The notes beneath the pieces were generated by a model that saw only the letters and a program-made list of their open reading frames with translations, was not told where the DNA came from and did not search any database. From Mycolicibacterium tokaiense (lineage in GTDB: Bacteria; Actinomycetota; Actinomycetes; Mycobacteriales; Mycobacteriaceae): a DNA stretch of 64,000 nt. Position numbers and translations under genes: made by a program. Where the stretch lies: positions 1,984,001 through 2,048,000 of the forward strand of contig NZ_AP022600.1 in the NCBI RefSeq assembly GCF_010725885.1, in the 5' to 3' direction. Shown here one piece after another: positions 30,988-60,364 of this stretch (within the stretch, counting starts at the first letter, position 1; every line of letters starts with the position of its first letter).

Positions 30988-31031
30988 CGGCGCAACGTAA
31001 CCGCTGGGGCCGCTGCGGCCAAGGCTTCTGC

Positions 31032-31907
31032 TCACGCGGGCAGGTATACCCACGGTTCGCGCGGAAGGCGCTGCGGGTCGAACTCAGCCAGCATGCCCTC
31101 GAGCCGCCGCGCCCGCATACCCAGGGAATCGGCGATCTTCGCCAGCGCCGGCTCGACACCGATCTCGGCCAGCGTCACCGCGCCGTCGCGCTTGGCCAGC
31201 CGCTTGCCCTCGGCATTGAGAACCAACGGCACATGGGCGTACGCCGGCTGTGGATGGCCCAGCAGCGCCCCCAGGTACGCCTGCCGCGGCGCAGAGGACA
31301 GGAGATCGTCACCGCGCACCACCTGGTCCACTCCTTGGGCGGCATCGTCGACGACGACGGCCAGGTTGTAAGCGGGCACTCCGTCGCCGCGGCGCAGCAC
31401 CAGGTCGTCCACCACACCGGTGTAGTTGCCGTACAGCAGATCGGTAACGGTGTAGCTGTAGGTGTCCGAGCGCAGGCGCAGCGCGGGTGGGCGGGTGCGC
31501 CGTTGCCGGCGCTGCGCGTCGGTGAGGTCGCGGCAGGTCCCGGGGTATGCGCCCTCGGGTGCGTGCGGCGCACGCGGTGCCTGCTGGATTTCCCTTCTGC
31601 TGCAATAACATTCGTAGACCAGTCCACGACCCTGCAGTTCCGCGATGACGCCGTCGTAGCGTGCTGCATGAGCGGTCTGGTATTCGGGCGGGCTGTCCCA
31701 CGTCACCCCGATGGCCGCCAGGTCGGCGATCTGGCGGGCGGCGATGTCGGGGGAGGTGCGGTCGTCGAGGTTCTCGACCCGGATCAGGAAGCGCCGCCCC
31801 GACGAGCGGGCGAACAGCCAGGCCAGCACCGCGGTGCGCAGGTTGCCGATGTGCAGGTCGGCCGACGGGCTGGGGGCGAACCGGCCTGCGGGGGCGGGGC
31901 GGGTCAT
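31032..31907 (-). CDS. gluQ: Glutamyl-Q tRNA(Asp) synthetase
   Basis: The 291-residue protein is a shortened GluRS catalytic domain without an anticodon-binding domain. HIGN of the HIGH motif is near residue 19 ([17 protein letters not shown]), a KMSKS-type loop is KRLAKRDGA, and the zinc site is CYCSRREI with YPGTCR downstream (C-x-C, Tyr, Cys as in E. coli YadB). GluQRS glutamylates the queuosine base at position 34 of tRNA-Asp. It stops 44 nt before the ABC transporter fusion and may share its transcript. Together with tgt it indicates queuosine use in this strain. Confidence 0.9.
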
Positions 31908-31940: not shown

Positions 31941-32585
31941 TCAGACCACCGCGCGCAGGCCCTCCCGGGCGGCCGCGATACAGGTGCTCCAGGACTCCGC
32001 ATCGACGGCGTGCACGGCAGCGTCGCTGGGGAAGGCGCTGGAGATCACCAGGTCGGGAGCCAGCGCCGCCAGCGTGGTCAGACTCTGCAGCAGCGTGGCC
32101 GCGTCGCTCATCGGCGGGAGGTAGCCTGCCGCCCAGCGGCCGTCGGCACCGTGGAACAGGGTGTCGCCGGTGAACAGCATCCGGGTCCCGTCAGCGGCGG
32201 TCACCAGGTAACAGGTGCTGCCGACGGTGTGACCGGGGGTGGGGATCACCTCGATGCCGTTGTCGTCGACGTGCCGGGTCGACAGCGCGACGTGCACGGA
32301 CGCGTGTGTGCCGATGGTGGTCTGCTCGGCCGCGGGGGCGTGCAGTCGGGCGCCGAACCGGCCCTGGATGCGGGCCAGTGCCGGACCCGCCTCGTCCTGG
32401 TGGGACAGGTACTGATGGGCCACCCCACCCAGCTCGTCGAGGGTGTTGAAATCGGCGTCGGTGGCCGGGCAGTAGAACAACACGTTGCCGTGCGGGCCGC
32501 CGGTCCAGAGATAGGCGTGGGTGGTCAGGCCGGGAAACGGGCTGTCGACCTGGGTCTCCCAGAGATCGTGGCGGATGCGCCGCAT
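31941..32585 (-). CDS. Metallo-beta-lactamase-fold protein with altered metal motif
   Basis: The 214-residue protein keeps the MBL-fold late motifs PTPGHTVGSTCYLV (His) and LFTGDTLFHG (Asp). The usual HxHxDH metal motif is replaced by YLSHQDEAGP near residue 60, which retains one His and one Asp. It may bind fewer metals or be non-hydrolytic. The closest readable class is the glyoxalase II-like or hypothetical MBL group. No partner gene suggests a substrate. Stand-alone gene beside the GntR regulator of the microcompartment locus. Confidence 0.75.
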   Translation of the reverse strand: MRRIRHDLWETQVDSPFPGLTTHAYLWTGGPHGNVLFYCPATDADFNTLDELGGVAHQYLSHQDEAGPALARIQGRFGARLHAPAAEQTTIGTHASVHVALSTRHVDDNGIEVIPTPGHTVGSTCYLVTAADGTRMLFTGDTLFHGADGRWAAGYLPPMSDAATLLQSLTTLAALAPDLVISSAFPSDAAVHAVDAESWSTCIAAAREGLRAVV

Positions 32586-32652: not shown

Positions 32653-33423
32653 TCAGCTGGCTTTGGTGCTGCTCTGCAGCGTCACCGAGGCGATGTCGGC
32701 GGCGGGCACGCCGATGCCGCGGCCGTTGACGGTGACCGCCAACCGGGTGCGATCGCCCCGGAACAGATCGTGGGAGAACTCGCACGGGGCGCCGTCCTGG
32801 TCGTAGGCGGTGCGGGTGATCAGCAGCAGCGCGGAGTTCTTCTTGATTCCCAGGAGGGTGGCTTCCTCGGAGGTGGCGTTGACCGCCTCGATGCGCTCGT
32901 CGGCACGCGAGGTGACCAGCCCGTACTGCGACTCCAGTACCTCATAGATGGACCCGCCGAGTTGCTGCTCGAGCAGACCGGGGAACCGGTCGGCGGGAAG
33001 TTGCGCGCGCTCCAGCGAGATCGGCGAGCCGTCGGCCAGCCGCACCCGCTGGATCTCGACGACGAATTCGCCCTCCTGCAGTTGCAGGGCCTGGGCGGTG
33101 GTCCGGTCGGGGATGGCGATCTTGGTCGACAGCACCCGGGTGCCGGCCACATAGCCCTGGCTGGCCAGGAACGCGGGGACACCGACGACGTCGGTGAGGC
33201 TGCGTTGCACCTGGACGTGGCTGATGAAGATGCCCCCGGCCCGTCCGATCACCCGCTCCACCAGACCGGCTTCCTCGAGAGCGGCCAGCACCTGGCGCAA
33301 GGTGGACCGGCTGGTCGAATACCGTTCGGCGAGTTCGCGTTCACTGCCGAGCTTGGAGCCCGGGGTGCCGGCGTTGACATCGGCGACGAGCTGGCGCCGC
33401 AACTCTTCCACTCGCGATGCCAC
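32653..33423 (-). CDS. GntR-family (HutC/UTRA) regulator of the microcompartment locus
   Basis: The 256-residue protein begins with GTG (MASRVEELRRQLVADV...), has a winged helix with ERELAERYSTSRSTLRQVLA near residue 28, and a UTRA ligand-binding domain from about residue 80 to the end. It lies at the 3' end of the leftward microcompartment operon, 43 nt after the dehydrogenase gene, and an operator-like palindrome sits 15 nt before its start. It probably responds to the pathway substrate or an intermediate and controls itself and the divergent promoters near 40.5 kb. Ligand unknown. Confidence 0.88.
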   Translation of the reverse strand: MASRVEELRRQLVADVNAGTPGSKLGSERELAERYSTSRSTLRQVLAALEEAGLVERVIGRAGGIFISHVQVQRSLTDVVGVPAFLASQGYVAGTRVLSTKIAIPDRTTAQALQLQEGEFVVEIQRVRLADGSPISLERAQLPADRFPGLLEQQLGGSIYEVLESQYGLVTSRADERIEAVNATSEEATLLGIKKNSALLLITRTAYDQDGAPCEFSHDLFRGDRTRLAVTVNGRGIGVPAADIASVTLQSSTKAS

Positions 33424-33437
33424 CGCGGCCCCCTGTC

Positions 33438-33454
33438 ATTTGGTCGTACCAAAT
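33438..33454. promoter_or_regulatory. GntR-type operator, copy 1 (regulator promoter)
   Basis: ATTTGGTCGTACCAAAT has 7-bp inverted arms around CGT and lies 15 nt upstream of the GntR gene start. Its core is GG-N5-CC. Related sites with the same spacing occur at 40446-40462 and 40528-40544, so it is the likely autoregulatory operator. Confidence 0.7.
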
Positions 33455-33465
33455 ACTACACCGCG

Positions 33466-34245
33466 TCACATCGCGGCGATGGCCTCGGCGGATTCGGGCA
33501 GGATCTGCCCGCCGTCGACCACCAGCGTCTGACCGGTGACGTAGGACGCTTCGTCGGTGGCGAAGAAGAGGGCGGCGTTGCCGATGTCGGCGGCGCTGCC
33601 GAGCCGGCCCGCGGGTACCGACGCTGCCATCGTGGCCATGTACTCCTCACCGAGGTCGATCAAGCCCTCGGTGGCGATGTTGCCGGGCAGCACCGCGTTC
33701 ACGGTGATGTTCTTCGGGGCCAGTTCCATGGCCGCAGTGCGGAGGAAGCCGAGCTGGGCGGCCTTGCTGGCGCCGTAGTGCGACCAGCCCGGGTAGCCGG
33801 TGATGGGTCCGGTGATCGACGAGGTGATGATCACCCGGCCGTGCCCGCTGGCGGTGAGCGCCGGCAACGCGGCCTGCACGCTGAACACCGTGCCCTTGAA
33901 GTTCACCCCCATCACCAGGTCGAGGTCCTCGGGTGTCATGTCCTCCAGGCGGTTCGACGGAAAGACACCGGCGTTGGCGCACAGGATGTCCAGCCCGCCG
34001 TGACGCTCGACGGCCTCGTCCACCACCCGCCGGCACTCCTGCGGGTTCGCCACGTCGGCGGCCACCCCGGACACGGTTCCCGGTGTGTCCGCCAATTCGG
34101 TCACGGCACGGTCGATGTCGGCCTGGTTACGTCCGGTGAGCACGACGTTGATGCCGGCCCGGGCGAAGGTCTCGGCGATGCCCCGCCCGATTCCCTTGCT
34201 GCCGCCGGTGACGATCGCCGACCGGCCCTGCAGTGATGCGAACAT
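33466..34245 (-). CDS. Short-chain dehydrogenase, probable 1-amino-2-propanol dehydrogenase
   Basis: The 259-residue SDR starts [20 protein letters not shown] (TGxxxGIG cofactor motif), with NAGVF near residue 92, catalytic Ser in ITSSITG, and YGASKAA (YxxxK) near residue 157. In M. smegmatis the equivalent gene of the RMM microcompartment encodes an S-(+)-1-amino-2-propanol dehydrogenase, interconverting aminoacetone and 1-amino-2-propanol; the assignment here rests on position and family. ATG at 34245 follows AAAGG; a longer start would run into the kinase gene. Confidence 0.82.
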
Positions 34246-34259
34246 GTGTGCCTTTCTGA

Positions 34260-35258
34260 TCAGGCCAGTCGTCGGCCGTCGTGGGTGAGATAACGCTCGG
34301 CCAGTACGCAACTACCTGCCGCGTAGGTGACCGACATGGCCTGGGATTCCCGGCTGTGGCTGTGCGAGCCCATCCACGCCAGCAGCAGCAGCCGGCGCAG
34401 CAGGACGAACGACGGCAGCATGGCCTCGTGCTCGGCGGCCAGCGGCGCGCGGGTGCGGTAGCCGGCGGTCCACGCGTCCTGCCACTCGGGCAGCGCCGGG
34501 TCATCCTCCATGAAGGACACCGCGGTGCCGAAGTCATAGAAATACCAGCCGAATCCGCAGTCGTCGAAGTCGATGACGGTGATGGTGTCGTCGTCCACCA
34601 GCAGATTGGCCAGCCGCAGGTCGGCGTGCACCAGCCCGAAGGTGTCGGGGCCGGTGCCGTACTCGGACAACCGGCGCCGCAGCAGCTGCTCGGCCCGCTT
34701 CAGGACGGCGGCCTCACCCGGGCCCACACCTACCGCGTCGGACCAGCGGCCCCAGCGCGGCCGGTCTCCCAGGCAGTGCTCCCAGTCCCAGGAGAACCGT
34801 GCGAAATGGGGCGGGCGGGTCCACGTCCGGGCGTGGTCGTGCAGCGCCGCGGTGATGCGCCCCAACGTGTGGAAGTCGGTCACCGCCAATGTTTCCGGAT
34901 CCGGCTCGGCGCCGGGCACCATCGCGAAGTGCACCACATGGCGGGCCACGCCCTCATGCTCGACGGTCACCACCCGCTGCCCGTCGCGGGTCGGAAGCAC
35001 AGTGGGCACGGTGACGTCGCTGCCGGAGTCCAGGGCCGCCAGCCAGTCCAGCTCGGACTCGATCTCTGCAGCCCGGTGGTAGTCCCGCCGGTGCACCCGC
35101 AGGATCGATCGTTCCCCGGTCTCGGAGTCCTCGACCGCGTACGTGGCGTTCTCGGAGAGGTTGAGCAGACGCAGCGTCGAGGTGGGCGGCAGGTCGTAGT
35201 TCTGCAGCGCCTGTTCGGCGACCGCCAGGTCGTCGCCGATGAACCCGGCCGCGGCCAT
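34260..35258 (-). CDS. Aminoglycoside-phosphotransferase-fold kinase, probable amino-2-propanol kinase
   Basis: The 332-residue kinase has the catalytic loop [15 protein letters not shown] near residue 217 and the metal-binding [10 protein letters not shown] near residue 235, as in APH/choline kinases. In the characterised mycobacterial RMM locus the equivalent enzyme phosphorylates S-1-amino-2-propanol, preparing it for the phospholyase. Its ATG overlaps the BMC-T stop by one base (TGATG), so it is part of the shell operon. Substrate assignment is by locus context. Confidence 0.85.
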
Positions 35259-35923
35259 CAGTGGTCGCGGCCTTCGATACCGGCCAGCACCGCGGTGATG
35301 CGGTCACGGGCGGTGGTGACATCGACTGTGCTGCCGCCGATGTAGAGCCGGCCCGCTGCCCCGATCATCTGGACGTCGACGAGGTTGAGCCCGGGGGCGG
35401 CCCGTTCGGCCTCGTTGGCGGCGACCGCGGCGAACAGTGCCGGCGTCATCTCGTACACCAGCAGCGATTCCCCGGGCAGCACCATCGAGGCCTGTCGGTT
35501 GCGGTTCAAGATCACCGCGTGCTGGTCGGTGATGTCCTCGATGATGTCGTGGTAGAGCACCCGGGGCCGCAGCTGATCGGCTGCGGCGTTGCCGGTGCCG
35601 GTCAAGATGGCGTCGCCGGCGCGGCGGATGTCGGACAGCTCGCCCGAGTGGATCTCCAGGACACCGAACTGCCGCTCCACGTACAGGATTCCGGGCTGGA
35701 TACCGGGCACCTCGCGCAGCGCCAGATCGATGACGCGCTCGATGGCCAGCGCGGGGGAGACCTCGACGATGAGGGCGTGTTCCCCGGCGTAGGGCGGATA
35801 GCCGCGCGCCCGGGTGGGTGTTCCCAGGTAGGCGGCGAACTGCGGTTGCAGGTCCTCGACCGGCAGATAGACCCGGATGTCGGTGCGGGTGCCGGTGCTT
35901 GTGGGTTGCTCGGTCACGGCCAT
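35258..35923 (-). CDS. BMC-T shell protein (tandem BMC domains) 1
   Basis: The 221-residue protein holds two BMC-fold units. It has an extended N-terminus of about 15 residues, then DIRVYLPVEDLQPQFAAYLG and a first unit to about residue 110. A second unit carries RNRQASMVLPGESLLVYEMT and LVDVQMIGAAGRLYIGGSTV. It forms pseudohexameric trimers in the microcompartment shell and may provide the larger gated pore. It is related to the other BMC-T at 36970-37575, sharing the GAAGRLYI/GATGRVYL motif. Confidence 0.9.
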   Translation of the reverse strand: MAVTEQPTSTGTRTDIRVYLPVEDLQPQFAAYLGTPTRARGYPPYAGEHALIVEVSPALAIERVIDLALREVPGIQPGILYVERQFGVLEIHSGELSDIRRAGDAILTGTGNAAADQLRPRVLYHDIIEDITDQHAVILNRNRQASMVLPGESLLVYEMTPALFAAVAANEAERAAPGLNLVDVQMIGAAGRLYIGGSTVDVTTARDRITAVLAGIEGRDH

Positions 35924-35930
35924 CGGCGCA

Positions 35931-36212
35931 CTACTGCGTGGTGACGGAGAAGTGTGCGCCGAGTTCGTTGTGCGGGCGCGGAATGACGTGCACGCTCACC
36001 AGTTCGCCGACCTGCGAGGCGGTTTCGGCGCCGGCCTCGGTGGCGGCCTTGACTGCTCCCACCTCGCCGGTGACGGTGATGGCCACCAGGCCGTCGCCGA
36101 CCTGCTGGCGGTCGGTGATGGTGACATTGGCTGCCTTCACCATCGCGTCGGCCGCGGCGAGTGCGGCGACGTAGCCTTTGGTCTCGATCATCCCGATCGC
36201 ATTGCTGGCCAT
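35931..36212 (-). CDS. BMC-H shell protein (hexamer)
   Basis: The 93-residue single-domain BMC protein starts MASNAIGMIETKGYVAALAA, the classic PduA/CcmK-type beginning (AIGMIETKG). It also has VGDGLVAITVTGEVGAVKAA and a C-terminal HVIPRPHNEL segment. It forms the bulk hexameric facets of the shell. It is the only BMC-H in the locus, which fits the small RMM shell inventory. The start follows an AGGAG-like site (GAAGGAGAAAC). Confidence 0.93.
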   Translation of the reverse strand: MASNAIGMIETKGYVAALAAADAMVKAANVTITDRQQVGDGLVAITVTGEVGAVKAATEAGAETASQVGELVSVHVIPRPHNELGAHFSVTTQ

Positions 36213-36246
36213 GATGTTTCTCCTTCTTCCGGGGTGCTGGGAACTG

Positions 36247-36498
36247 CTATTCGGTGGTGCCGGGGTCGATCGAGCCGACGATGAGGGCGTCGATGGGCGG
36301 CGGGGTGCCGGCGAACCAGCCGGCCGCCACCGAGCCCTGGGTGATCAGGACGCGCTCGCCGAGCCCGCTGCCCAGGACGTCGAACGCGATGAGCTTGCTG
36401 CCGCTGCCGTCGGTCTCCACTTCGAGCAGCGCCCCGGCGGGCATGCCGTCCACGCAGCGGGTGGACCAGATGTGGCCGGTGACCGTGCCGGTGATCAT
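36247..36498 (-). CDS. BMC-P shell vertex protein (EutN/CcmL family)
   Basis: The 83-residue protein starts MITGTVTGHIWSTRCVDGMP and has the family pattern LIAFDVLGSGLGERVLITQG, then DALIVGSID near the C-terminus. EutN/CcmL proteins form pentamers that cap the twelve vertices of the icosahedral shell. The ATG overlaps the stop of the frameshifted gene upstream. Confidence 0.92.
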   Translation of the reverse strand: MITGTVTGHIWSTRCVDGMPAGALLEVETDGSGSKLIAFDVLGSGLGERVLITQGSVAAGWFAGTPPPIDALIVGSIDPGTTE

Positions 36499-36973
36499 GA
36501 GCGCTCCTTCGAGACGGTGATGCCGAGGGCTCTGGCCTTCTCGCGGGCCAGCGGGGTCAGCACGGCCCTGGGCCCGAGCACCAGGGTGGCGCCGGTGCCC
36601 GCGAGGTCGGCGATATGGCGTTCGGTGACGGCGCCGCGGTCGATACGGTGGCTACCTGCGCCGGTGGTCGCCGTGCGGGCCAGCCGGAACTTCAGCCGCC
36701 CCTGCCGTAGGTCGGCGCGTGTCTTCGGGTTCTCGAACAGCGCTAGCAGGGTGCGCACGAAGCCGTCCAGATCGACGTCGGTGGCGATCCGGACGGTGTC
36801 GGTGCGGGCCTTCTCGTCGGCGGCCAGCGGACCGGTGGGGACGACGGTGGCAGCCGGCGGGGGTGGGGGTGTGGCGGGTGCGGAGCGGCTGCGGGAGCGG
36901 GTGGTTTGACGTCCCTGACGGCATCGCGAACGACCTCGCGGACCAGCAGTCGCAGTTGTTCGCGGTCGATCAT
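36495..36973 (-). pseudogene. BMC-associated protein with encapsulation-like helix, frameshifted
   Basis: The start at 36973 gives MIDREQLRLLVREVVRDAVR, an amphipathic helix of the encapsulation-peptide type, then a Pro/His-rich linker. At the poly-G/C tract near 36857-36870 the frame must shift by one base to read the conserved C-terminal domain, which contains TDTVRIATDVDLDG, RGAVTERHIADLAG and TLVLGPRAVLTPLAREKARA. The interval is 479 bp, one short of a whole-codon length. A single missing base in the homopolymer (sequencing error or real mutation) would restore a 159-residue protein. It lies where RMM loci carry an uncharacterised gene between the BMC-P and BMC-T genes, with four-base overlaps on both sides. 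Confidence 0.7.
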
Positions 36974-37575
36974 CCGACACTCCGGCGCAGCGCATCCTCG
37001 GCCGCGGACGCAGCCTGGCGGACGTCGGCCTCGGTGCCGGAGAGGTACACCCGCCCGGTGGCGCCGATCATGCGGAAGTCGACGACCTTGATGTCGGCGG
37101 CCTTCTCGGCCTCGTTGGTGGCCAGGATCGCGTAGCTGGCCGGCGCCACCTCCAGGACGTAGAGCGACTCCCCGGCCAACACCATGGATCCGATCTTGTT
37201 GCGATTGATCAGGAACGCGTGCTGCTGGTCGATGCTGGAGATGATGCGCGAGGCCAGGATGCTCGGCGGCAGCGCGGACCCGGCGTTGCCGCCGAGCTCG
37301 TCGAGCGCGGCGTCGGCGGAGGCCTTGACCGCTCCGGTCTCGCCGTGGAACTCCAGGTAGCCGAACTGACGCTCCACCACCAGCACCCCGGCCTTCACCT
37401 CGGCGTGCTTGAGCGCCACGTCGGTGACGGCTTCGATGTCCAGACCCGGCGCCACCTCGATGATCTGAGCGGCCACGTCGGCACGGGGCAGGGCACCTTT
37501 GATCCAGGTGCCCAGATACGACATCGTCTGCGGCTGCAGCCGGTCGATGAAGATGAACGAACGCAATTCAGCCAC
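36970..37575 (-). CDS. BMC-T shell protein (tandem BMC domains) 2
   Basis: The 201-residue protein starts MAELRSFIFIDRLQPQTMSY, with a first BMC unit to about residue 95 (VKAGVLVVERQFGYLEFHGE) and a second unit with LINRNKIGSMVLAGESLYVL and VDFRMIGATGRVYLSGTEAD. It forms trimeric pseudohexameric tiles. The stop overlaps the start of the following frameshifted gene (ATGA), showing tight coupling in the operon. Two different BMC-T proteins plus one BMC-H and one BMC-P match the known RMM shell set. Confidence 0.9.
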   Translation of the reverse strand: MAELRSFIFIDRLQPQTMSYLGTWIKGALPRADVAAQIIEVAPGLDIEAVTDVALKHAEVKAGVLVVERQFGYLEFHGETGAVKASADAALDELGGNAGSALPPSILASRIISSIDQQHAFLINRNKIGSMVLAGESLYVLEVAPASYAILATNEAEKAADIKVVDFRMIGATGRVYLSGTEADVRQAASAAEDALRRSVG

Positions 37576-37578
37576 GAA

Positions 37579-39126
37579 TCACCTCTTGATCAGTTGGGCG
37601 AGTTCTTCGACGACCAGCGCGCGCAATTCGGCGCGCAGCGCCTCGATGCCGGGATCGCCCGAGCGGGCGGGCGGGTGCGCCCTGGGCGCGGGTGCCGCGG
37701 GCACCGCACCCAGGTCATTGGAGGCCCGGGGGTAGGCCGGAACCGGACCGGCCGGCGACCGCCACGGCGAGACCCCGGCGAAGTTCGGCATGGTGACCCC
37801 GGCATCGGCGTTGTAGGCGATGCGGGTCCAGTTGACCAGATGCCCCGGCTGCAGGTTCTCCCCGATGGAGCTGCGCCCGACGAAGCCGGTACCAATCGTC
37901 ATCGACGGTGCCAGGTTGGTCTCCAGACCGGAGCTGCCGGTGCTGTTGCCCACGTTCACCGACACCCGCAGCACCGGAACCTGTGCCGCGAAATCCGCTA
38001 TCACCCGCGCGTTTTCGCTGTGGATGGCCGCAGAGTGGCCGGCACCGGCAATGCGGATGACAGCGCGCGCGGCGCGGATGCCACGGTCGGCGTCGGCCAC
38101 CGTCGTCATCCCGAGCACCGGCGAGAGCTTCTCGTGGGTCAACATCTCCTCGGCGAGCACATCGGTGAACGGCGCCACCAGCACGCGGGTCTTCGCAGTG
38201 ACGCGGATGCCCGCCTGCTCGGCGATCCACGCGGCGTCGCGTCCCACCACGTCGGTGTTGAGTCTGCCGTCACCGAACATGTAATGCCGCAGCCGCCTGG
38301 TGGCGTCCTCGTCGAGAATGGCTGCACCATTGCGGTTCATTGCCGCGGTGAGCTTCGCGGCGATGGACTCCTCGGCGATCAGCACCGACTCGTTGGTGCA
38401 CAGCACCGAGTTGTCGAAGGCCTTGCTGTCGACGATGCGTCGTGCCGCCGCGTCGATGTCGGCGCTGGCATCGACGAACACCGGAACGTTGCCGGGACCG
38501 ACACCGAGCGCGGGGTTGCCCGAGGAATAGGCCGCCCGGACCACCGCGTTGCCGCCGGTGGCCACGATGACATCGGTGCGGGCATCGCCCATCAGGGTCT
38601 CGACCAAGGGGATGGACGGCTCTGCGATCACAGAGACGATGCCGTCGGGCGCCCCGGCCGCCACCGCCGCCTCGGCGAGCACCAGGGCGGCATCCACCGA
38701 ACACTGCCGGGCCCGGGGGTGCGGCGCGACGACCACCGCATTGCGTGTCATCAACGCCAGCAGCACCTTGAAATACACCGTAGCAACGGGATTGGTGGTG
38801 GGGGTCAGTGCCAGCACCACCCCTGCAGGCCTGGGGATCTCGACGATCTTGCGGGCGGCGTCGATGCGAGGCGAGACGAAGTCGTCGTCGCGGTAGTACT
38901 CCACGATGCCGCGCGAGCAGGCCCGGTTCTTGACGATCTTGTCGGCCACCACCCCCATGCCGGTCTCGGCGACGGCGGCCGCGGCGAACCGCTCGGCCTC
39001 GCGGTAGGCGGCGTCGGCCACCGCGGTGACCACGGCGTCGACGTGCGCGCGGTCATATTCGGCGTACGCGGCCGCGGCCCAGCGCGCACGCTCCAGGATC
39101 TGACCCACTGCAACGGTGTTGTTCAC
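37579..39126 (-). CDS. CoA-acylating aldehyde dehydrogenase (PduP-like), encapsulated
   Basis: The 515-residue enzyme starts with GTG (RBS GGAGG) overlapping the aminotransferase stop. It is of the PduP/EutE type: ALTPTTNPVATVYFKVL near residue 95 and catalytic Cys in FDNSVLCTNESV near residue 247. After the catalytic domain there is an Ala/Pro-rich linker and a C-terminal amphipathic helix (ALRAELRALVVEELAQLIKR), the encapsulation peptide that targets cargo to the shell lumen. It turns the aldehyde released by the signature enzymes into acyl-CoA (propionyl-CoA if the substrate is C3). No PduL phosphotransacylase is present in the locus. Confidence 0.92.
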   Translation of the reverse strand: MNNTVAVGQILERARWAAAAYAEYDRAHVDAVVTAVADAAYREAERFAAAAVAETGMGVVADKIVKNRACSRGIVEYYRDDDFVSPRIDAARKIVEIPRPAGVVLALTPTTNPVATVYFKVLLALMTRNAVVVAPHPRARQCSVDAALVLAEAAVAAGAPDGIVSVIAEPSIPLVETLMGDARTDVIVATGGNAVVRAAYSSGNPALGVGPGNVPVFVDASADIDAAARRIVDSKAFDNSVLCTNESVLIAEESIAAKLTAAMNRNGAAILDEDATRRLRHYMFGDGRLNTDVVGRDAAWIAEQAGIRVTAKTRVLVAPFTDVLAEEMLTHEKLSPVLGMTTVADADRGIRAARAVIRIAGAGHSAAIHSENARVIADFAAQVPVLRVSVNVGNSTGSSGLETNLAPSMTIGTGFVGRSSIGENLQPGHLVNWTRIAYNADAGVTMPNFAGVSPWRSPAGPVPAYPRASNDLGAVPAAPAPRAHPPARSGDPGIEALRAELRALVVEELAQLIKR

Positions 39127-40403
39127 GCCGACCTCCGTCCCATCGCGGCCCGCCGCGCCTGGCCGATGGCCAGCTCCATGCGGTCGAGTACGTCCTCGCA
39201 CAGCTCGCGGTCCATCAGCAAGCCCGGTTTGAGCTGCAGCACACGGGGATCCAAGGTCGAGAAGATCGCCCAGACACCCCTCTCGTAGAGCTCGCGCATG
39301 ACGAACTTGGCGCCTTCGGGGTGGTCGAACTCGCACCCGATCACCACGCCGTTCTGCCGGATGCCGGTGAACCAGTCTGGATTGTCGGCCTGGATCCGGC
39401 CCAGGCCGGCGGCGAACAGGTCGGCGATGTAGTGCACCGAGGACCTGATTTCGGGCCTGCCGCTGATCTCGAGGGTCTTGATGGCGGCCACGCAGCCGAG
39501 TTCGGCGCCGCCGAAGGTGGAGATGTGCCCGAACCCGTCCTGGTTGAGCCAGGCGGCGGCGCGCTCACTGAGCATGGCCGCGGTGATGGGGTACATGCCG
39601 CCGGAGAGTCCCTTGCCAGTGACGATGATGTCGGGCTCGATACCGTGCTTGGTGATCGCCCACATCTCGCCGGTGCGCATCAGGCCGGTCTGTACCTCGT
39701 CGGCGATGTAGAGCGCGTCGTAGCGCACGCACAGATCCTTGACCGTCTCCAGGTAACCCGGTGGGGGCAACGGGAATCCGTAGGTCGCCGGGATGGTTTC
39801 CATGATCACGGCTGCGACGTCGCGCCCGCGCAGGGCCTGCTCCATGGCATCGAGGTCGCCGAAGGTGACCTGCACGAACTCGTCGGGGCGGTCGGCGAGG
39901 AACAGTTTGGCGAAGCGGTCGTCGCCGGTGGCCACCGCCAGGCCGGTGTGGCCGTGGTAGGCCTTGACGATCGAGACGATCTTGCGGCGCTGCATGGCGT
40001 GGCGGGCGCTCTTGAGCGCGATGTCGATCGCTTCGCCGCCGCCGGAGCCGAAGGCGACCTTGGTGATGGATGCCGGTGCGGACTCCACCAGTTTCTGGGC
40101 CAGCGCGGTGCGGGCGACGGAGGGAAAGTGGTGGTTGCCCACGTCGAAGAATTCCATGCCCTGCGAAAGTGCCTGCACCACTTCGGGATTGCGGTGTCCG
40201 AGGCTGTAGGTGCCGCCGTTGAGGTGCATGTCGATGAGGCGTCGGCCCCCCATGTCCCAGAGGAAGTAGCCTTCGCGGCGGTCGATCACCAGGTCCACCC
40301 CGGCGTCGGTCCAGAACTGGGTCTTGTCCGGGTTCCAGAAGGTCTTGGCCCGTTCCAGGACCTGTGCCTTCGACTCGAACGAGAAGGTGCCGTAGTCGTA
40401 CAC
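39123..40403 (-). CDS. Class III PLP aminotransferase-fold enzyme, probable amino-alcohol-phosphate phospholyase
   Basis: About 426 residues. The PLP lysine is in IVTGKGLSGGMYP near residue 245, and IADEVQTGLMRTG precedes it. In the RMM pathway this enzyme is proposed to convert O-phospho-1-amino-2-propanol to propionaldehyde, ammonia and phosphate, like ethanolamine-phosphate phospholyase. I chose GTG at 40403 because it has a GGGAG site five to six bases upstream; the ATG at 40460 lies within an operator-like palindrome and would add 19 residues of unlike composition. It is the first gene of the leftward operon. Confidence 0.85.
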   Translation of the reverse strand: MYDYGTFSFESKAQVLERAKTFWNPDKTQFWTDAGVDLVIDRREGYFLWDMGGRRLIDMHLNGGTYSLGHRNPEVVQALSQGMEFFDVGNHHFPSVARTALAQKLVESAPASITKVAFGSGGGEAIDIALKSARHAMQRRKIVSIVKAYHGHTGLAVATGDDRFAKLFLADRPDEFVQVTFGDLDAMEQALRGRDVAAVIMETIPATYGFPLPPPGYLETVKDLCVRYDALYIADEVQTGLMRTGEMWAITKHGIEPDIIVTGKGLSGGMYPITAAMLSERAAAWLNQDGFGHISTFGGAELGCVAAIKTLEISGRPEIRSSVHYIADLFAAGLGRIQADNPDWFTGIRQNGVVIGCEFDHPEGAKFVMRELYERGVWAIFSTLDPRVLQLKPGLLMDRELCEDVLDRMELAIGQARRAAMGRRSA

Positions 40404-40445
40404 GAGTCTCCCTGCGTGTCGTCTGGCCGTGTCGGGCACCACGCT

Positions 40446-40462
40446 AAATGGAAGGACCATTT
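40446..40462. promoter_or_regulatory. GntR-type operator, copy 2 (microcompartment operon promoter)
   Basis: AAATGGAAGGACCATTT has 6-bp arms around a 5-nt centre and the same GG-N5-CC core as the site before the GntR gene. It lies 43 nt upstream of the chosen aminotransferase start, in promoter position for the leftward operon. Confidence 0.62.
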
Positions 40463-40527
40463 ATGTCAATGGTCAGAAAAGTCGGGCCAAATCTGAAATC
40501 GATACGGCGCTACCGCTTGCGCTCGCT

Positions 40528-40544
40528 ATTTGGTAGTGCCAATA
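40528..40544. promoter_or_regulatory. GntR-type operator, copy 3 (permease/diol dehydratase promoter)
   Basis: ATTTGGTAGTGCCAATAT shares the TTTGG-N5-CCAA pattern of copy 1 with one imperfect arm position. It is 72 nt upstream of the permease ATG. Its presence suggests that the rightward permease-diol dehydratase operon is controlled together with the shell operon. Confidence 0.6.
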
Positions 40545-40616
40545 TAACCGAGTTCACTGTGGCCTGGGCCACACACCGGGCGCAGTCGCTGCCCCCTCTG
40601 GAAGGTACTCCCAACG

Positions 40617-42149
40617 ATGACCGATCGAGTGTTGTCACGCGACGAAAACGCCGGCGGCGGGGTCCAACGACTCAAACGCAACGCCGTCGGAACCTTCGGC
40701 GTCATCTTCATGGCGGTGGCCACGGCCGCGCCCATCACCGCGATGGTCGGCAACGTGCCGATCGCGGTCGGTTTCGGCAACGGCTCCCACGCCCCGGCGG
40801 GCTACCTGGTCGCCACGATCGTGCTCGGCCTGTTCGCCATCGGCTACGCCACCATGGCCAAGCACATCACCGCCACCGGCGCCTTCTACGGCTACATCTC
40901 CCACGGACTCGGCCGCGTCATGGGGATGGCCAGCGGCCTGATCATCACGATGGCCTACATCGTGTTCGAGGGATCGCTGATCGGCATCTTCGCCTACTTC
41001 TTCCAGAACCTGTTCGCCTCGCAGCTCGGGATCACCATCCACTGGCTCATCCCGGCTCTGCTGATGCTGGTGCTCAACTGCGTGCTGACGTACTTCGACG
41101 TGAACCTGACCGCCAAGGTGCTCGGCGTCTTCCTGATCACCGAGATCGTCATGCTGGCTCTGGGCGCGCTGGCCGTGTTGTTCCGCGGCGGCGGTCCCGA
41201 GGGCTTCGCCGTGGCCGAGACGCTGAACCCCATCGGTGCCTTCACCCCGGCCGCCATCGCCGGCGCCAGCGCCGGACTGGGCCTGTTCTTCGCCTTCTGG
41301 TCATGGGTGGGCTTCGAGTCCACCGCCATGTACGGCGAGGAGTCCAAGGACCCGAAGCGAATCATTCCCCGCGCCACCATGATCGCCGTGCTGGGCGTGG
41401 GTATCTTCTACATCTTCGTGTCCTGGATGGCCATCGCGGGCACCGGCCCCCAACAGTCGGTGGAACTGGCTCAGGACCCGGCCACCGCCGGTGACATCTT
41501 CTTCAACCCGGTGCGCAGCACCTACGGTGAGTGGGCCATCACGGTCTTCAACATCCTGTTGGTGACGGGCTCCTTCGCCTGCGGGATGGCCTTTCACAAC
41601 TGCGCCTCGCGGTACCTGTACGCCCTGGGCCGCGAGGGATTGTCCACCGGCCTGCAGAAGACCCTGGGCGCCACCCACCGCACCCACGGATCGCCGTACA
41701 TCGCGTCCTTCGTCCAGACCGGTATCACCCTGGTGCTGATCCTGGCGTTCTTCTTCGCCGGCATGGACCCGTACGTGCACCTGTACACACTGCTGGCCAT
41801 CCTGGGCACCATGGCAATCCTGATCGTGCAGTCGCTGTGCGCCTTCGCGGTGATCGCCTACTTCCACTTCCACAAGAACCATCCCTCCAGTGCGCACTGG
41901 TTCAAGACCTTCTTGGCGCCGCTGCTCGGTGGTATGGGCATGCTCTACGTGGTCTACCTGCTCTGGGAGCACAAGGACGCCGCGGCCGGTGCGGCGTCGG
42001 GCACACTGCTGTTCAAGCTGACACCGTGGATCGTCGTCGGTGTGTTCGTGATCGGCGCGCTGCTCGCGCTGTACTTCAAGTTGCGTGATCCGCGGCGTTA
42101 TGAGCTGATCGGTCGGGTTGTGTTCGACGACAGCGAAATCCGCGACTGA
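40617..42149 (+). CDS. APC-family amino acid/amine permease
   Basis: The 510-residue integral membrane protein has about 12 hydrophobic segments and the APC-family first-helix signature in GTFGVIFMAVATAAPITAMV near residue 27. The family exchanges or imports amino acids and amines by proton symport. RMM-type loci usually include such a transporter, so an amino alcohol or related amine is the likely substrate. It starts the rightward operon; the diol dehydratase follows after 26 nt. Confidence 0.88.
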   Translation: MTDRVLSRDENAGGGVQRLKRNAVGTFGVIFMAVATAAPITAMVGNVPIAVGFGNGSHAPAGYLVATIVLGLFAIGYATMAKHITATGAFYGYISHGLGRVMGMASGLIITMAYIVFEGSLIGIFAYFFQNLFASQLGITIHWLIPALLMLVLNCVLTYFDVNLTAKVLGVFLITEIVMLALGALAVLFRGGGPEGFAVAETLNPIGAFTPAAIAGASAGLGLFFAFWSWVGFESTAMYGEESKDPKRIIPRATMIAVLGVGIFYIFVSWMAIAGTGPQQSVELAQDPATAGDIFFNPVRSTYGEWAITVFNILLVTGSFACGMAFHNCASRYLYALGREGLSTGLQKTLGATHRTHGSPYIASFVQTGITLVLILAFFFAGMDPYVHLYTLLAILGTMAILIVQSLCAFAVIAYFHFHKNHPSSAHWFKTFLAPLLGGMGMLYVVYLLWEHKDAAAGAASGTLLFKLTPWIVVGVFVIGALLALYFKLRDPRRYELIGRVVFDDSEIRD

Positions 42150-42175
42150 CAGATCCAGGACCTCAGGAGGGCGCC

Positions 42176-44416
42176 GTGGCGCAGGAGTTGGGCCGGTTCC
42201 GGGTTCTGAACGCGAAGCCGGTCAACCTCGACGGGTTCAGTGTGGCCGACGCCGAACTCGGCCTGGTGGCGATGCGCAGCCCGCACGACCCGGCGCCGTC
42301 CCTGGTGATCCAGGACGATGTGATCGTCGAACTCGACGGCAAGACCACCGCCGAGTTCGACGTCATCGACGAGTTCATCGCCCGCTACGGCATCGATCTG
42401 GCCGTGGCTCCGGAGGCGATGGCTCTCGACGACGCGTCCCTGGCCCGGATGGCAGTGGACGTCAACGTGCCGCGGGCGGAGGTGGTGCGGCTGATCGGCG
42501 GCACCACCCCCGCCAAACTCGCCCGCGTCATCGCCCTGATGACGCCGGTCGAGATGCAGATGGCGATGGCCAAGATGCGCGCCCGGCGCACGCCGAGCAA
42601 TCAGGCCCACGTGACCAACCAACTCGACGACCCCCTGCTGATCGCCGCGGACGCGGCCAGCGCCGTGGCCTACGGGTTCCGCGAAGTCGAGACCACCGTG
42701 CCGGTGCTCGGCGACGCGCCCTCGAATGCGGTGGCCCTGCTGATCGGCAGCCAGGTCGGCACCCCCGGCGCCATGGCACAGTGCTCCATCGAGGAGGCGC
42801 TGGAGTTGCGCCTCGGCTTGCGTGGGCTGACCAGCTACGCCGAGACCATCTCCATCTACGGCACCGAGCAGGTGTTCGTCGACGGCGACGACACCCCCTT
42901 CAGCAAGGCCGTACTCACGTCGGCGTACGCGTCACGCGGCCTGAAGATGCGGGTCACCAGCGGCGGCGGCGCCGAGGTGCTGATGGGAGCGGCCGAGAAG
43001 TGCTCCATCCTCTACCTCGAGTCGCGATGCGTCTCCCTGGCCCGGGCGCTCGGCAGCCAGGGCGTGCAGAACGGCGGCATCGACGGCGTCGGCGTGGTGG
43101 CCGCGGTCCCGGAGGGCATGAAAGAGCTGCTGGCCGAGAACCTGATGGTGATGATGCGTGACCTCGAGTCATGCGCGGGCAACGACAACCTGATCTCCGA
43201 GTCCGACATCCGCCGCAGCGCCCACACGCTCCCGGTGCTGCTGGCCGGCGCGGACTTCATCTTCTCCGGCTTCGGCTCGATACCGCGCTACGACAACGCC
43301 TTCGCCCTGTCGAACTTCAACTCCGACGACATGGACGACTTCCTGGTACTGCAACGGGACTGGGGCGCCGACGGTGGCCTGCGCACGGTCTCACCCGAGC
43401 ACCTCGAGGCCGTGCGCCGGCGGGCGGCCACCGCAGTGCAGGCCGTCTACCGGGATCTGGGGCTGGCCGACTACGACGATGCCCACGTCGAAGACGTGGT
43501 GTGCGCCAACGGTTCCCGCGACCTGCCGGCCGGGCATCCCACGATGGTGGCCGAGGCCGCGGCCTCGATCGAAGCCAGACAGTTGACGGTGTTCGACGTC
43601 ATCGCCGCCTTGCAGCGCACCGGCTTCGCCGAGGAAGCCGAGGCGATCGCCCGGCTCACCCGCGAACGCCTGCGCGGAGACCAGCTGCAGACCTCGGCGA
43701 TCTTCGATTCCCGGTTCCAGGTGTTGTCGAAGCTGACCGACCCCAACGACTACACCGGGCCGGGCACGGGGTACACCCCGACACCGCAGCGCCGTGCAGA
43801 GATCGACACCATCCGGCAGGCGCGCAGTGCCTCCGAGCTGACCGCCGATCAGGAGGAGCACCGCGGCCACGTGAGCGTCACCGACGGCGAGATCGCCGGG
43901 CAGAGCGCCGATCCGCGGGAGGTGTGCATCGGGTTGTCCCCGGCCTGGGGTCGCAGTGTGTGGCTCACCTTGTGCGGCCTGCCGATCGGCGAGGTGTTGC
44001 GGCAGATCTCCGCGGGCCTCGAGGAGGAGGGCTGTGTGCCGAGGCTGGTGCGCGTGCGCTCCACCATCGACGTCGGTCTGATCGGCCTGACCGCGGCGCG
44101 GTTGTCCGGGTCCGGCATCGGAATTGGATTGCAGGGCAAAGGCACATCGTTGATCCACCGCCGGGACCTGGCACCACTGGCCAACCTCGAACTGTTCAGC
44201 GTGGCCCCGCTGCTGACCGCGCAGATGTACCGCGACCTCGGCAAGAACGCCGCACGTCACGCCAAGGGCATGGCCCCGGTGCCCATCTTCACCGGGGGCA
44301 CCGACGAGTCCATCTCGGCGCGCTACCACGCCCGCGCCGTCGCGCTGGTGGCCCTGGAACGCCAGGCCTGTGAACCGGGTGAACCGCCGGTGGCCGTGGA
44401 GGTGGTGCGACGATGA
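42176..44416 (+). CDS. B12-dependent diol/glycerol dehydratase, fused large and medium subunits
   Basis: The 746-residue protein joins a PduC-type large subunit (residues 1 to about 555) and a PduD-type medium subunit (from about residue 575). The large part starts like PduC after a few residues (NAKPVNLDGFSV, then AMRSPHDPAPSLVI) and keeps ALGSQGVQNGGIDG and AGNDNLISESDIRRS of the active site. The medium part begins near VCIGLSPAWGRS and ends with ISARYHARAVALVALERQ. The enzyme dehydrates vicinal diols to aldehydes by an adenosylcobalamin radical mechanism. The GTG start has a strong AGGAGG. The medium subunit's own N-terminal encapsulation helix is absent, replaced by the fusion linker. Confidence 0.9.
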   Translation: MAQELGRFRVLNAKPVNLDGFSVADAELGLVAMRSPHDPAPSLVIQDDVIVELDGKTTAEFDVIDEFIARYGIDLAVAPEAMALDDASLARMAVDVNVPRAEVVRLIGGTTPAKLARVIALMTPVEMQMAMAKMRARRTPSNQAHVTNQLDDPLLIAADAASAVAYGFREVETTVPVLGDAPSNAVALLIGSQVGTPGAMAQCSIEEALELRLGLRGLTSYAETISIYGTEQVFVDGDDTPFSKAVLTSAYASRGLKMRVTSGGGAEVLMGAAEKCSILYLESRCVSLARALGSQGVQNGGIDGVGVVAAVPEGMKELLAENLMVMMRDLESCAGNDNLISESDIRRSAHTLPVLLAGADFIFSGFGSIPRYDNAFALSNFNSDDMDDFLVLQRDWGADGGLRTVSPEHLEAVRRRAATAVQAVYRDLGLADYDDAHVEDVVCANGSRDLPAGHPTMVAEAAASIEARQLTVFDVIAALQRTGFAEEAEAIARLTRERLRGDQLQTSAIFDSRFQVLSKLTDPNDYTGPGTGYTPTPQRRAEIDTIRQARSASELTADQEEHRGHVSVTDGEIAGQSADPREVCIGLSPAWGRSVWLTLCGLPIGEVLRQISAGLEEEGCVPRLVRVRSTIDVGLIGLTAARLSGSGIGIGLQGKGTSLIHRRDLAPLANLELFSVAPLLTAQMYRDLGKNAARHAKGMAPVPIFTGGTDESISARYHARAVALVALERQACEPGEPPVAVEVVRR

Positions 44417-44748
44417 CACCGGAACACATCAGCGTGGGCAACGCCGTCGACGGCAAGCTGGGCTTGTCGGATCTGCGGATGGACCCGGCCGTGCTGGCCC
44501 ACCAGGCGGTGGTGGCCGCCGAGGGTGGCAATCCGCAGTTGGCCGAGAACTTCCTGCGCGCAGCCGAACTGGCCACGATGGACGACGACGACGTGATGAA
44601 CCTCTACGAAGCGTTACGCCCCCATCGGTCCACCGCCGAGGAGCTCGAAGCGCTGCGGATCAGCCTGGAGAACCAGGGTGCCGCACGGTGTGCGGCCCTG
44701 GTGGAGCAGGCCGCACAGGCGTATGCCCGCCGGGGTCTGTTGCGTTGA
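44413..44748 (+). CDS. Diol dehydratase small subunit (PduE-like)
   Basis: The 111-residue protein starts with an ATG overlapping the stop of the large/medium gene. It matches the C-terminal part of PduE: LRMDPAVLAHQAVVAAEGGN, then PQLAENFLRAAELATM, RSTAEELEALR and a terminal AYARRGLLR. Typical PduE has about 170 residues with an N-terminal extension that can act as an encapsulation signal; that extension is missing here. It completes the dehydratase heteromer. Confidence 0.9.
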   Translation: MTPEHISVGNAVDGKLGLSDLRMDPAVLAHQAVVAAEGGNPQLAENFLRAAELATMDDDDVMNLYEALRPHRSTAEELEALRISLENQGAARCAALVEQAAQAYARRGLLR

Positions 44749-46445
44749 GCCCCGTGGTGGCGGGCATCGACATCGGCAACCACACCACCGAGATCGTGCT
44801 GGCCCGCGTCGACGGCGCCGCCGTGACGCCGGTGACCCACGGCCAGGCGGCGACGCGGGGACGCAAAGGATCCCGGGAATCGCTGGAAGGTGCTGCGGCA
44901 CTGCTGCATCGCCTCGAGGTGCAGGCAGGTGTGTCGGCCGATGAGCTGGCGCTGGCGGTGCTGAGGCCGGTGGACACCGCCACCGCGCCCATTCCCCGCG
45001 CGTACATCCCCGACGCGCCGGTGCGCAGCCTGCGCGCCGCCGCGGCCAGTACCGCGGCCGGGCACGGGCACGGGGTGGGCGTGCACGTGCCCCTGCGCGA
45101 CCTGAGCGGGCCAGCTGCCGACGCCCCGGTGATCGTCTCCGTGCCTGCCGGTGTCGATTTCGAGGATGCCGCAGCGCAACTCACCGCAGGGGCGGCCCGC
45201 GGCTGGCTGATCGCCGGCGTGCTGGTCGCTGCCGACGACGCGGTGCTGATCGCCAACCGGATCCCGTTGGCCGTCCCCGTGGTCGACGAGGTGGCACTCG
45301 ACATCGCCCCAGGTGCGCTGGTGGCGGTGGAGGTCATCGAGGCCGGCCGGGCGTTCCGGGCGTGGGCGGACCCGATCGCGCTGAGCGCGGCGCTGCACCT
45401 GCCCACCGAGCGCTTGGCGCAGGTCGCGGAGTTCTGCCGCGAACTCTCCGACGCCTCGGCCATCGCCGTCACCGCCCGCACCGCCGCGGACCCGCCGCCG
45501 GACGGCGGTGCGGACTATGTCGACGTACAGACCGGAGGGACACTCACCCGCTACACCCCGGCGCAGGCCCACTCGGTGCTGCGCCAGTGCATCCCGGGCA
45601 GCGCCCGGCAGGTCCGACTGGCAGCGCTGGCCGCGGCCCGGGACGGGTTGGCGGTCCACGACGCGTTCTTCACCGACCTGTCCGCCATCGACAACGGGGT
45701 GTGGTTGCGCCGCGGGGTCGCCGATACGCAGGGCACCGTGGTGGCGCTGCTGGCCGCTGACGAGATCACCGACGCCGCAGCAACATTGGCCGAACTCACC
45801 GGGCGACCCGCGCTCACGCTGGCCGACGAACCCGAGGCGGCCGCGCGCGGGGCGCGCACCACTGTCGGCCTGCCGCCGGGTGCGCTGGTCTGCGATATCG
45901 GCGGCGGCACCATCGACCTCGTCGGCGCAGAGAACACCGTGGTGGCCGCCGGAGCGGGGGAGACGATCACCGTGGCGGTGGCGCGGGTACTCGGAGTCCC
46001 CAAGGCGCTGGCCGAGACGGTCAAGCGCACTCCCGCGGTGCGGGTGGAGGGTCCGCACGTGGCGCACGAAGAGGACGGCAGGCGGGTGTTCCTCGATGCG
46101 CCAGCGCCGGCCGACGCGATCGGCAGATTGTGTACCCGGGGTGGTGCCGGCCTGGTGCCGTTCTCCAGCCGGCTGGCCGCCGAGGAGTGGCGCAGCCTCC
46201 GTCTGGCGGTCAAGCAGGAGACGGTGGCCGCCAATATCGCCCGCGCGTTGCGCGCCTTCCCGGTGCCGCCGCCGGTGATGGTGCTCGCCGGGGGTGGTGC
46301 GCTGGACGACGAACTGCTGCGCACCGTCACCGAGGCGCTGCGGGCGGTGCCGGTGGTGGTGGGCCGGGCGAATGTGGACGGTATCCACGGCCCCCGTTTT
46401 GCGGTGGCCTCCGGCCTGGTGCACCTGCTCGCTGAGCGTGCGTGA
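44745..46445 (+). CDS. Diol dehydratase reactivase, large subunit (DdrA/PduG-like)
   Basis: About 566 residues, with an actin/Hsp70-like ATPase fold: VVAGIDIGNHTTEIVLARVD at the N-terminus (phosphate 1) and VCDIGGGTIDLVGAE near residue 385. This matches DdrA/PduG, which exchanges damaged cobalamin in the dehydratase using ATP. The start is taken as TTG at 44745 (four-base overlap with the small subunit stop); GTG at 44754 is an alternative. The usual small partner DdrB/PduH is not found in the window, so it is either encoded elsewhere or not needed. Confidence 0.88.
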   Translation: MSPVVAGIDIGNHTTEIVLARVDGAAVTPVTHGQAATRGRKGSRESLEGAAALLHRLEVQAGVSADELALAVLRPVDTATAPIPRAYIPDAPVRSLRAAAASTAAGHGHGVGVHVPLRDLSGPAADAPVIVSVPAGVDFEDAAAQLTAGAARGWLIAGVLVAADDAVLIANRIPLAVPVVDEVALDIAPGALVAVEVIEAGRAFRAWADPIALSAALHLPTERLAQVAEFCRELSDASAIAVTARTAADPPPDGGADYVDVQTGGTLTRYTPAQAHSVLRQCIPGSARQVRLAALAAARDGLAVHDAFFTDLSAIDNGVWLRRGVADTQGTVVALLAADEITDAAATLAELTGRPALTLADEPEAAARGARTTVGLPPGALVCDIGGGTIDLVGAENTVVAAGAGETITVAVARVLGVPKALAETVKRTPAVRVEGPHVAHEEDGRRVFLDAPAPADAIGRLCTRGGAGLVPFSSRLAAEEWRSLRLAVKQETVAANIARALRAFPVPPPVMVLAGGGALDDELLRTVTEALRAVPVVVGRANVDGIHGPRFAVASGLVHLLAERA

Positions 46446-58874: not shown

Positions 58875-58948
58875 GTCGGACATGCTAGCGGAGTCACCCC
58901 CGAAGCCCAGAATCGTTGGTCGCGGGGGCCGGGTATTACACTCGTGGC

Positions 58949-60364
<1,416 letters not shown>

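Follow-up and report, generated by a model that had tools for sequence, protein, structure and literature searches.

Does a bacterial microcompartment (BMC) that is encoded beside a B12-dependent diol dehydratase make use of that enzyme? The question is raised by positions 32653-46445 of a 64,000-nucleotide stretch of the Mycolicibacterium tokaiense genome (NZ_AP022600.1, positions 1,984,001 to 2,048,000; hereafter the window), where gene-by-gene annotation revealed a complete BMC block of the RMM or aminoacetone-utilisation (AAU) type together with a divergent permease/dehydratase/reactivase operon (Table 1). A first-pass annotation had described the leftward operon as a full RMM set of kinase, dehydrogenase, phospholyase-like aminotransferase, shell proteins and aldehyde dehydrogenase (AldDH), and the divergent one as a permease with a fused dehydratase, its small subunit and a reactivase; all the genes named were found in their places. 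Its claim that published RMM loci have no cobalamin enzyme is wrong. According to the passages on RMM loci in Axen et al. 2014 (PMC4207490), RMM2 carries diol dehydratase genes, on the opposite strand, and RMM1 does not, so that the presence of the dehydratase is what separates the two. The locus has the syntenic RMM gene block from permease to regulator and diol dehydratase genes on the opposite strand; it is an RMM2-type BMC locus, and the pairing of RMM genes with a dehydratase has already been published. In the same passages the authors favour a compartment that does not use the dehydratase, a bifunctional compartment being their alternative.

The balance of evidence inclines us, with modest confidence, to regard the dehydratase as a long-standing, separable companion module that is probably not core cargo and has an altered substrate range. 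As the literature suggests, the leftward operon would convert (S)-1-amino-2-propanol or aminoacetone to a phosphate, then to propionaldehyde and, inside the shell, to propionyl-CoA. The rightward operon of permease, dehydratase and reactivase has the divergent promoter region in common with it and would presumably be regulated together with it. The dehydratase itself probably resides outside the shell, or is at most loosely associated with it, and its substrate is probably a diol whose C3 side differs from that of plain 1,2-propanediol or glycerol.

The association was examined in a genus survey of 396 genomes, in which the RMM AldDH was defined as window-like at E at most 1e-150 and at most two dehydratase candidates were scored per genome. 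The RMM AldDH was found in 75 genomes, and the orthologous fused dehydratase (class A; 79-100% identity to the window enzyme) in 97 genomes and 98 loci. The class A dehydratase lies within 12 kb of the RMM AldDH in 28 loci and elsewhere in a genome with the RMM AldDH in 36; the other 34 loci belong to 33 genomes without that enzyme. Inspection of all these 34 identified 20 shell-less pathway loci, 12 dehydratases standing alone and 2 undecided cases (L152, L154); L157, at a contig end in a genome without the aminotransferase, was counted as stand-alone, as was L149, an additional copy in the genome that holds L133. Each of the 14 loci inspected among the 36 "elsewhere" consists of dehydratase, small subunit and reactivase without nearby RMM genes. 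A family-level sample of 401 genomes yielded 15 with class A (the query included), 4 beside the RMM AldDH, 6 elsewhere and 5 without it; 4 of these last 5 loci are shell-less, two of them new (G337, G346). Within the genus, the dehydratase is present in 64 of the 75 RMM genomes versus 33 of the 321 others (odds ratio 51, Fisher p 2e-37, species kinship ignored). The aminotransferase was absent from all 11 genomes tested that have a stand-alone dehydratase and no RMM AldDH.

Eighty named RMM loci were fetched by their AldDH, and the dehydratase was scored as absent only where the flank on the permease side measured 2.5 kb or more. Thirty-two have the dehydratase, 38 do not and 10 are cut off too early (32 of 70 decidable loci). 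The linked loci include those of Planosporangium, Microtetraspora, Microbispora, Nonomuraea, Kineosporia and Nocardioides; two from Nocardioidaceae, L044 and L054, carry it on the side of the regulator and not on that of the permease. Pairwise distances of dehydratase and AldDH are correlated (r 0.94 over 30 loci, 0.92 within mycobacteria and 0.83 in other actinobacteria, kinship ignored), and about as parallel as those of AldDH and aminotransferase (0.94, 0.92 and 0.87 for the same sets). The association between dehydratase and RMM genes is therefore real but loose. The first-pass annotation had named incidental adjacency in a genome survey as what would undo its proposal, and the answer is divided: the two are separable (28 of 98 loci adjoining), but they co-occur and have diversified together. 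Among the single loci encountered, L068 is an RMM2 locus in a metagenome-assembled genome labelled Bifidobacterium breve, a doubtful label, and a plasmid of Rhodococcus jostii RHA1 (NC_008270.1:400679-401974) encodes an AldDH with about 50% identity to that of RMM loci. Sutter et al. 2021 (PMC8217296), where the terms RMM1 and RMM2 are also used, describe in their section on these types two RMM2 outliers in other phyla that adjoin phage integrase genes.

Next to the dehydratase operon, the 20 shell-less loci retain the aminotransferase and kinase, shell genes and RMM AldDH both being absent. Regulator and short-chain dehydrogenase/reductase (SDR) are also present in 19 of them, L158 being cut off, and the permease is missing from L153. 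BMC domain matches were found in none of the 22 shell-less genomes (these 20 plus G337 and G346). Here the kinase comes immediately after the aminotransferase, at a spacing that varies among loci, and the aminotransferase and dehydratase frames are of normal length. The ratio of nonsynonymous to synonymous substitution (dN/dS) in six shell-less pairs was 0.02-0.20 for most genes and 0.37 at most, resembling four shelled pairs; this comparison returned "stop" entries for the aminotransferase in two pairs and the regulator in one, and complete aminotransferase open reading frames of normal length exist.

Aminotransferase, kinase, SDR and regulator were concatenated for a tree of 63 rows (quick method). 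It requires at least four changes between the shelled and the shell-less state, all four forced by starred branches, and all four fall inside the clade of dehydratase-linked mycobacterial loci. Because its RMM1 rows were selected through the AldDH and its shell-less rows through the dehydratase, the frequency of shell loss among RMM1 loci is not readable from this tree. The loci outside the clade (other mycobacteria, Rhodococcus, Pimelobacter, Nocardioides, Geodermatophilus), which were picked by AldDH, have shells, and loss is therefore the simpler direction. The shell-less state would thus have arisen by loss, the change count alone fitting loss or gain, or exchange between strains. Since a Prospective BMC Locus is defined by shell genes in the corresponding section of PMC4207490, the shell-less loci fall outside the definition of the 2014 survey. 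A limited search of the open-licence literature found no description of shell-less derivatives or of the active-site aspartate discussed below, and nothing on lost shell genes in Mycolicibacterium or on amino-propanediol together with diol dehydratase.

Neither RMM AldDH nor class A dehydratase is present in 288 of the sampled genomes, of which 178 (18 + 160) were tested for the aminotransferase. Three were positive (0 of 18 and 3 of 160). In G664 (L175), aminotransferase, kinase, SDR and regulator are present but shell, permease and dehydratase are not, which rules out the idea that the shell was lost only where the dehydratase is linked. G718 (L178) is also shell-less, its contig ending within the aminotransferase. 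The third, G446, holds a divergent shelled RMM-like locus (L176, AldDH match in two pieces) and a divergent shell-less aminotransferase-kinase-permease-regulator set (L177).

The promoter region between aminotransferase and permease contains a palindrome and a dyad (Table 1). With at most one mismatch, the palindrome occurs in this gap in 17 of 19 RMM2, 18 of 21 shell-less and 27 of 29 RMM1 loci, and the dyad in 19 of 19, 18 of 21 and 29 of 29; in background windows they occur 0 and 12 times in 2000. At the same tolerance, palindrome and dyad were found in none of 27 upstream regions (400 bases) of stand-alone dehydratases. That unlinked dehydratases are co-regulated with RMM1 through the same motifs is thus unsupported.

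Is the dehydratase cargo? In the PDU microcompartment, the N-terminal extensions of PduD and PduE carry known targeting peptides. The match of the fused medium subunit starts at position 31 of 219 in NF011616 and at residue 49 of 1dio_B, and that of the small subunit at residue 63 of 1dio_G and profile position 25 of PF02287; since both matches start inside the profiles and chains, extensions of the PduD/PduE type are missing. The C-terminal tail of the AldDH is helix-like, as targeting tails are, and is conserved among the tails compared (mycobacteria, Rhodococcus, Nocardioides and others) with the exception of L020, which reads out of frame. When up to 19 shelled and up to 22 shell-less loci were compared, no terminal segment of the aminotransferase, the kinase, the SDR, the fused dehydratase, its small subunit or the reactivase was conserved solely with the shell; a targeting segment on the aminotransferase, kinase, SDR or dehydratase that vanishes with the shell was likewise not seen. 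The absence of N-terminal extensions and of shell-specific segments speaks against a classical tag on the dehydratase.

The active site points to an altered substrate. Large, medium and small subunit domains are all present in the enzyme. Positions are numbered after K. oxytoca diol dehydratase by alignment. The window enzyme retains the catalytic and metal residues Q141, H143, E170, E221, Q296, D335, S362 and F374. RMM-type and unfused enzymes were compared over 99 distinct large-subunit sequences from 112 loci, and 98 of these keep the catalytic sites too. The canonical substrate contacts are not retained: aspartate occupies the Ser301 position (residue 303) and asparagine the Gln336 position (residue 338). 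All 92 RMM-type sequences have Asp301 and none has Ser301; position 336 is N in 69, A in 15 and S in 8 of them. Ninety of the 92 continue in a single frame across both domains; the other two (L004, L065) are truncated at the ends of their contigs. The unfused PduC sequences have Ser301/Gln336 in 7 of 7. Both kinds, fused Asp301 and unfused, occur together in G260 and G273; the unfused PduC/D/E sets with Ser301/Gln336 at L125-L129 lie in mycobacterial genomes that hold fused Asp301 enzymes as well. According to PMC7674605, glycerol can bind to diol dehydratase in a mode that has its C3-OH facing Ser301; the S301A exchange increases the Km for 1,2-propanediol about 6-fold, and Q336A increases it as well. 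The carboxylate at position 301 suggests a polar or cationic C3 substituent, and since Asp replaces Ser301, the C3 side of the substrate is probably non-canonical.

A second mycobacterial group of Asp301 dehydratases (class B: L118, L121, L123; 60-63% identity) is relevant here. These genes diverge from a permease of APC type (by Pfam in L118; by tblastn, at 32-33%, in L121 and L123) and lie with a PucR-type regulator, the neighbours having been picked with a simple gene caller that mis-called several genes; within 20 kb no match to the shell or AldDH genes of the window was found. To judge by gene context, this permease neighbourhood would fit an imported amine-type substrate. In the dehydratase tree, where long branches are flagged, unfused enzymes stand apart from fused ones (100, starred) and class A apart from the rest (99, starred), and class B is joined weakly (89) with the RMM-linked enzymes of other actinobacteria; a single and a double origin of the RMM association are both compatible with it. 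In a phylum sample of 168 genomes, two besides the source genome have a dehydratase, both unfused with Ser301. A protein search returned 7987 matches, the best 120 of which have at least 87% identity and are mycobacterial where named, bar one labelled soil metagenome; 93 plasmid records are all below 60% identity and, among the 30 matches listed, come from Enterobacteriaceae with enzymes annotated as propanediol/glycerol dehydratases. An unlikely extension of these observations is that the fused Asp301 dehydratases which accompany RMM loci form a distinct class for a diol with an amine-type (cationic) C3 group (3-amino-1,2-propanediol, for example) that the APC permease takes up, and that several mycobacterial lineages lost organelle and AldDH while keeping both enzyme sets. 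If true, compartmentation of the pathway would be dispensable and would have been lost several times.

The first-pass annotation proposed a compartment with two signature enzymes, the alternative that Axen et al. also consider, in which dehydratase and phospholyase would both make propionaldehyde in one shell for one AldDH. Co-occurrence and co-diversification favour this proposal, as do the conserved divergent promoter motifs, the linkage in 32 of 70 decidable loci, those of other actinobacterial families included, and the growth on 1,2-propanediol of Paracoccus yeei TT13, assigned to RMM2 in the pertinent part of PMC8156839. Encapsulation of the dehydratase is unsupported, in that no recognisable targeting segment and no PduD/PduE-type extension is found. 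Furthermore, the 20 shell-less loci, which also lack the RMM AldDH, retain both enzyme sets, 36 RMM genomes keep the dehydratase at another locus, none of the 27 stand-alone upstream regions has the promoter motifs, and Asp301 counts against the proposal as well. A shared lumen is possible but less supported than a separable companion, and we consider it doubtful. That the dehydratase operon landed beside the RMM genes by chance, with nothing shared, would explain why about half of the 98 loci lie apart from the aminopropanol genes (the 36 elsewhere, 14 of them inspected, plus the 12 alone) and why 27 of 27 stand-alone upstream regions have no RMM motif; it is quite unlikely, considering that the dehydratase co-occurs with RMM genes in the same genome even when unlinked (36 genomes), adjoins either side of the RMM block in other families (L044 and L054 versus the rest) and adjoins the phospholyase in the 20 shell-less loci. 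Least probable of all is a serial route, in which the aminotransferase would make lactaldehyde, and the 1,2-propanediol formed by its reduction would be turned into propionaldehyde by the dehydratase: the discussion of this BMC in PMC6620236 proposed a lactaldehyde/1,2-propanediol branch, not linked there to a dehydratase, and the aminotransferase persists beside the dehydratase in shell-less loci, but the same discussion rates the branch not very likely, the kinase is left without a clear place, RMM1 loci have no linked dehydratase, the 11 stand-alone genomes tested have no aminotransferase, and the enzyme has Asp301.

Several points also weigh against our preferred view of the dehydratase as a separable companion outside the shell. 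The co-occurrence and the distance correlations ignore species phylogeny. Shell loss is not tied to the dehydratase, since the shell-less set of G664 has none. A cytosolic dehydratase is not proven by the missing tag, because the aminotransferase, usually assumed to be cargo, likewise has no conserved one; encapsulation is possible without a recognisable peptide. Asp301 may be compatible with ordinary diols. Finally, the RMM2-bearing Paracoccus links this locus type to growth on 1,2-propanediol, though its genome report, which records growth on propylene glycol, states that a pdu operon is absent (PMC5773746).

The features of the locus are collected in Table 1. On the minus strand, the transcription order is class-III aminotransferase, AldDH, BMC-T(dp), a 161 aa protein, BMC-P, BMC-H, second BMC-T(dp), kinase, SDR and regulator. 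The plus-strand genes are those for the APC permease, the fused large and medium dehydratase subunits, the small subunit and reactivase alpha. The dehydratase starts 26 bases after the permease stop, and the fused gene and the small subunit, as well as the small subunit and the reactivase, overlap by 4 bases each; this spacing would be consistent with one operon.

Table 1. Coordinates of the RMM2-type locus within the window
Feature	Position	Strand	Evidence
GntR/UTRA transcriptional regulator	32653..33423	-	PF07702, PF00392; ortholog present in RMM loci
SDR, presumed 1-amino-2-propanol/aminoacetone dehydrogenase	33466..34245	-	nearest solved chains 6ci8/6ci9, E 3e-130
APH-family kinase, presumed (S)-1-amino-2-propanol kinase	34260..35258	-	nearest solved chain 6ef6, E 3e-154
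BMC-T(dp) shell protein	35258..35923	-	5suh MSM0271, E 1e-113
BMC-H shell protein	35931..36212	-	PF00936
BMC-P vertex protein	36247..36498	-	PF03319; 5l37 MSM0273, E 1e-35
161 aa protein, no Pfam match (E up to 1)	36495..36980	-	conserved across RMM loci
Second BMC-T(dp) shell protein	36970..37575	-	PF00936; CcmP-like NF053796
Aldehyde dehydrogenase, acylating PduP/EutE type, helix-like C-terminal tail	37579..39126	-	
Class-III PLP enzyme, presumed amino-alcohol-phosphate phospholyase	39123..40460	-	PF00202
Palindromic motif TTGGTAGTGCCAA	40530..40542	.	divergent promoter region
TGTGG-N6-CCACA dyad, candidate GntR operator	40558..40573	.	divergent promoter region
APC-superfamily amino acid/amine permease	40617..42149	+	PF13520
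B12-dependent dehydratase, Dehydratase_LU+MU fused, 746 aa	42176..44416	+	
Dehydratase small subunit, Dehydratase_SU, 111 aa	44413..44748	+	PF02287
Diol dehydratase reactivase alpha (DDR)	44745..46445	+	PF08841, PF18427

The chains 6ef6 and 6ci8/6ci9 are, we presume, Mycobacterium smegmatis RMM proteins like MSM0271 and MSM0273. For the aminotransferase no solved RMM counterpart was found, the best solved chain being a more distant putrescine aminotransferase. The substrate assigned to the kinase rests on a title cited in PMC8007038. The 161 aa protein has the C-terminal motif GAVTER...AVLTPLAREKARALG; its family of about 160 aa is present in the majority of shelled RMM loci whose flanks are long enough and is missing, like the shell, from shell-less loci. 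The source genome has no BMC domain match beyond the locus and no second dehydratase large subunit. Its sole PF02288 match sits within the fused dehydratase; taking PduH to be a PF02288 member, no PduH-like reactivase subunit is present. Neither a PduL-type phosphotransacylase (PTAC) nor a PduQ-type alcohol dehydrogenase is among the genes of 32653-46445. At Rfam gathering thresholds, the window holds a small signal recognition particle RNA (58946-59040) and a tRNA gene (58789-58874) only, and no cobalamin riboswitch. RMM2 loci are also characterised by the lack of the RMM1 hydrolases. Selected neighbours were annotated in the flanks (28801-50591): a gene with a metallo-beta-lactamase fold lies near the regulator end (31941-32585), and a 750 aa reading frame at 28801-31053 has two SBP_bac_3 stretches and one ABC permease domain, resembling a cystine transporter.

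With the pairing known, the shell-less derivatives and the Asp301 signature are the more interesting leads. The 2014 question, whether the RMM2 compartment uses its dehydratase, is now directly testable. The shell-less relatives constitute a natural experiment with several apparently independent losses, bearing on the purpose of the shell, the identity of its cargo and the fate of the aldehyde, and Asp301 yields a specific and cheap biochemical prediction on substrate range.

Compared with RMM2 as outlined in PMC4207490 and in PMC8217296, the locus shares the RMM block, the opposite-strand dehydratase, the AldDH and the absence of alcohol dehydrogenase and PTAC. Its gene content is the same at the level checked, and the passages describing RMM2 in these accounts do not mention subunit fusion, Asp301 or shell-less derivatives. 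With the RMM1/AAU (Aaum) BMC of M. smegmatis it shares kinase, SDR, BMC-T and BMC-P with near solved relatives, aminotransferase, AldDH, permease and regulator; RMM1, in the comparison drawn in PMC4207490, differs in having no dehydratase genes. The large, medium and small subunits, the PduG-type reactivase and the conserved catalytic residues are shared with PduCDE/PduGH of the PDU BMC, whereas the C-D fusion, the missing N-terminal extensions of D and E, Asp301 with N, A or S at 336, and the absence of a separate PF02288 protein in the genome and of PduQ and PduL among the locus genes set it apart. The best solved match (9vii) is a chain of a Klebsiella-type glycerol dehydratase with alpha and beta subunits; in contrast to this solved sequence, which has Ser at the 301 position, the enzyme of the locus has Asp.

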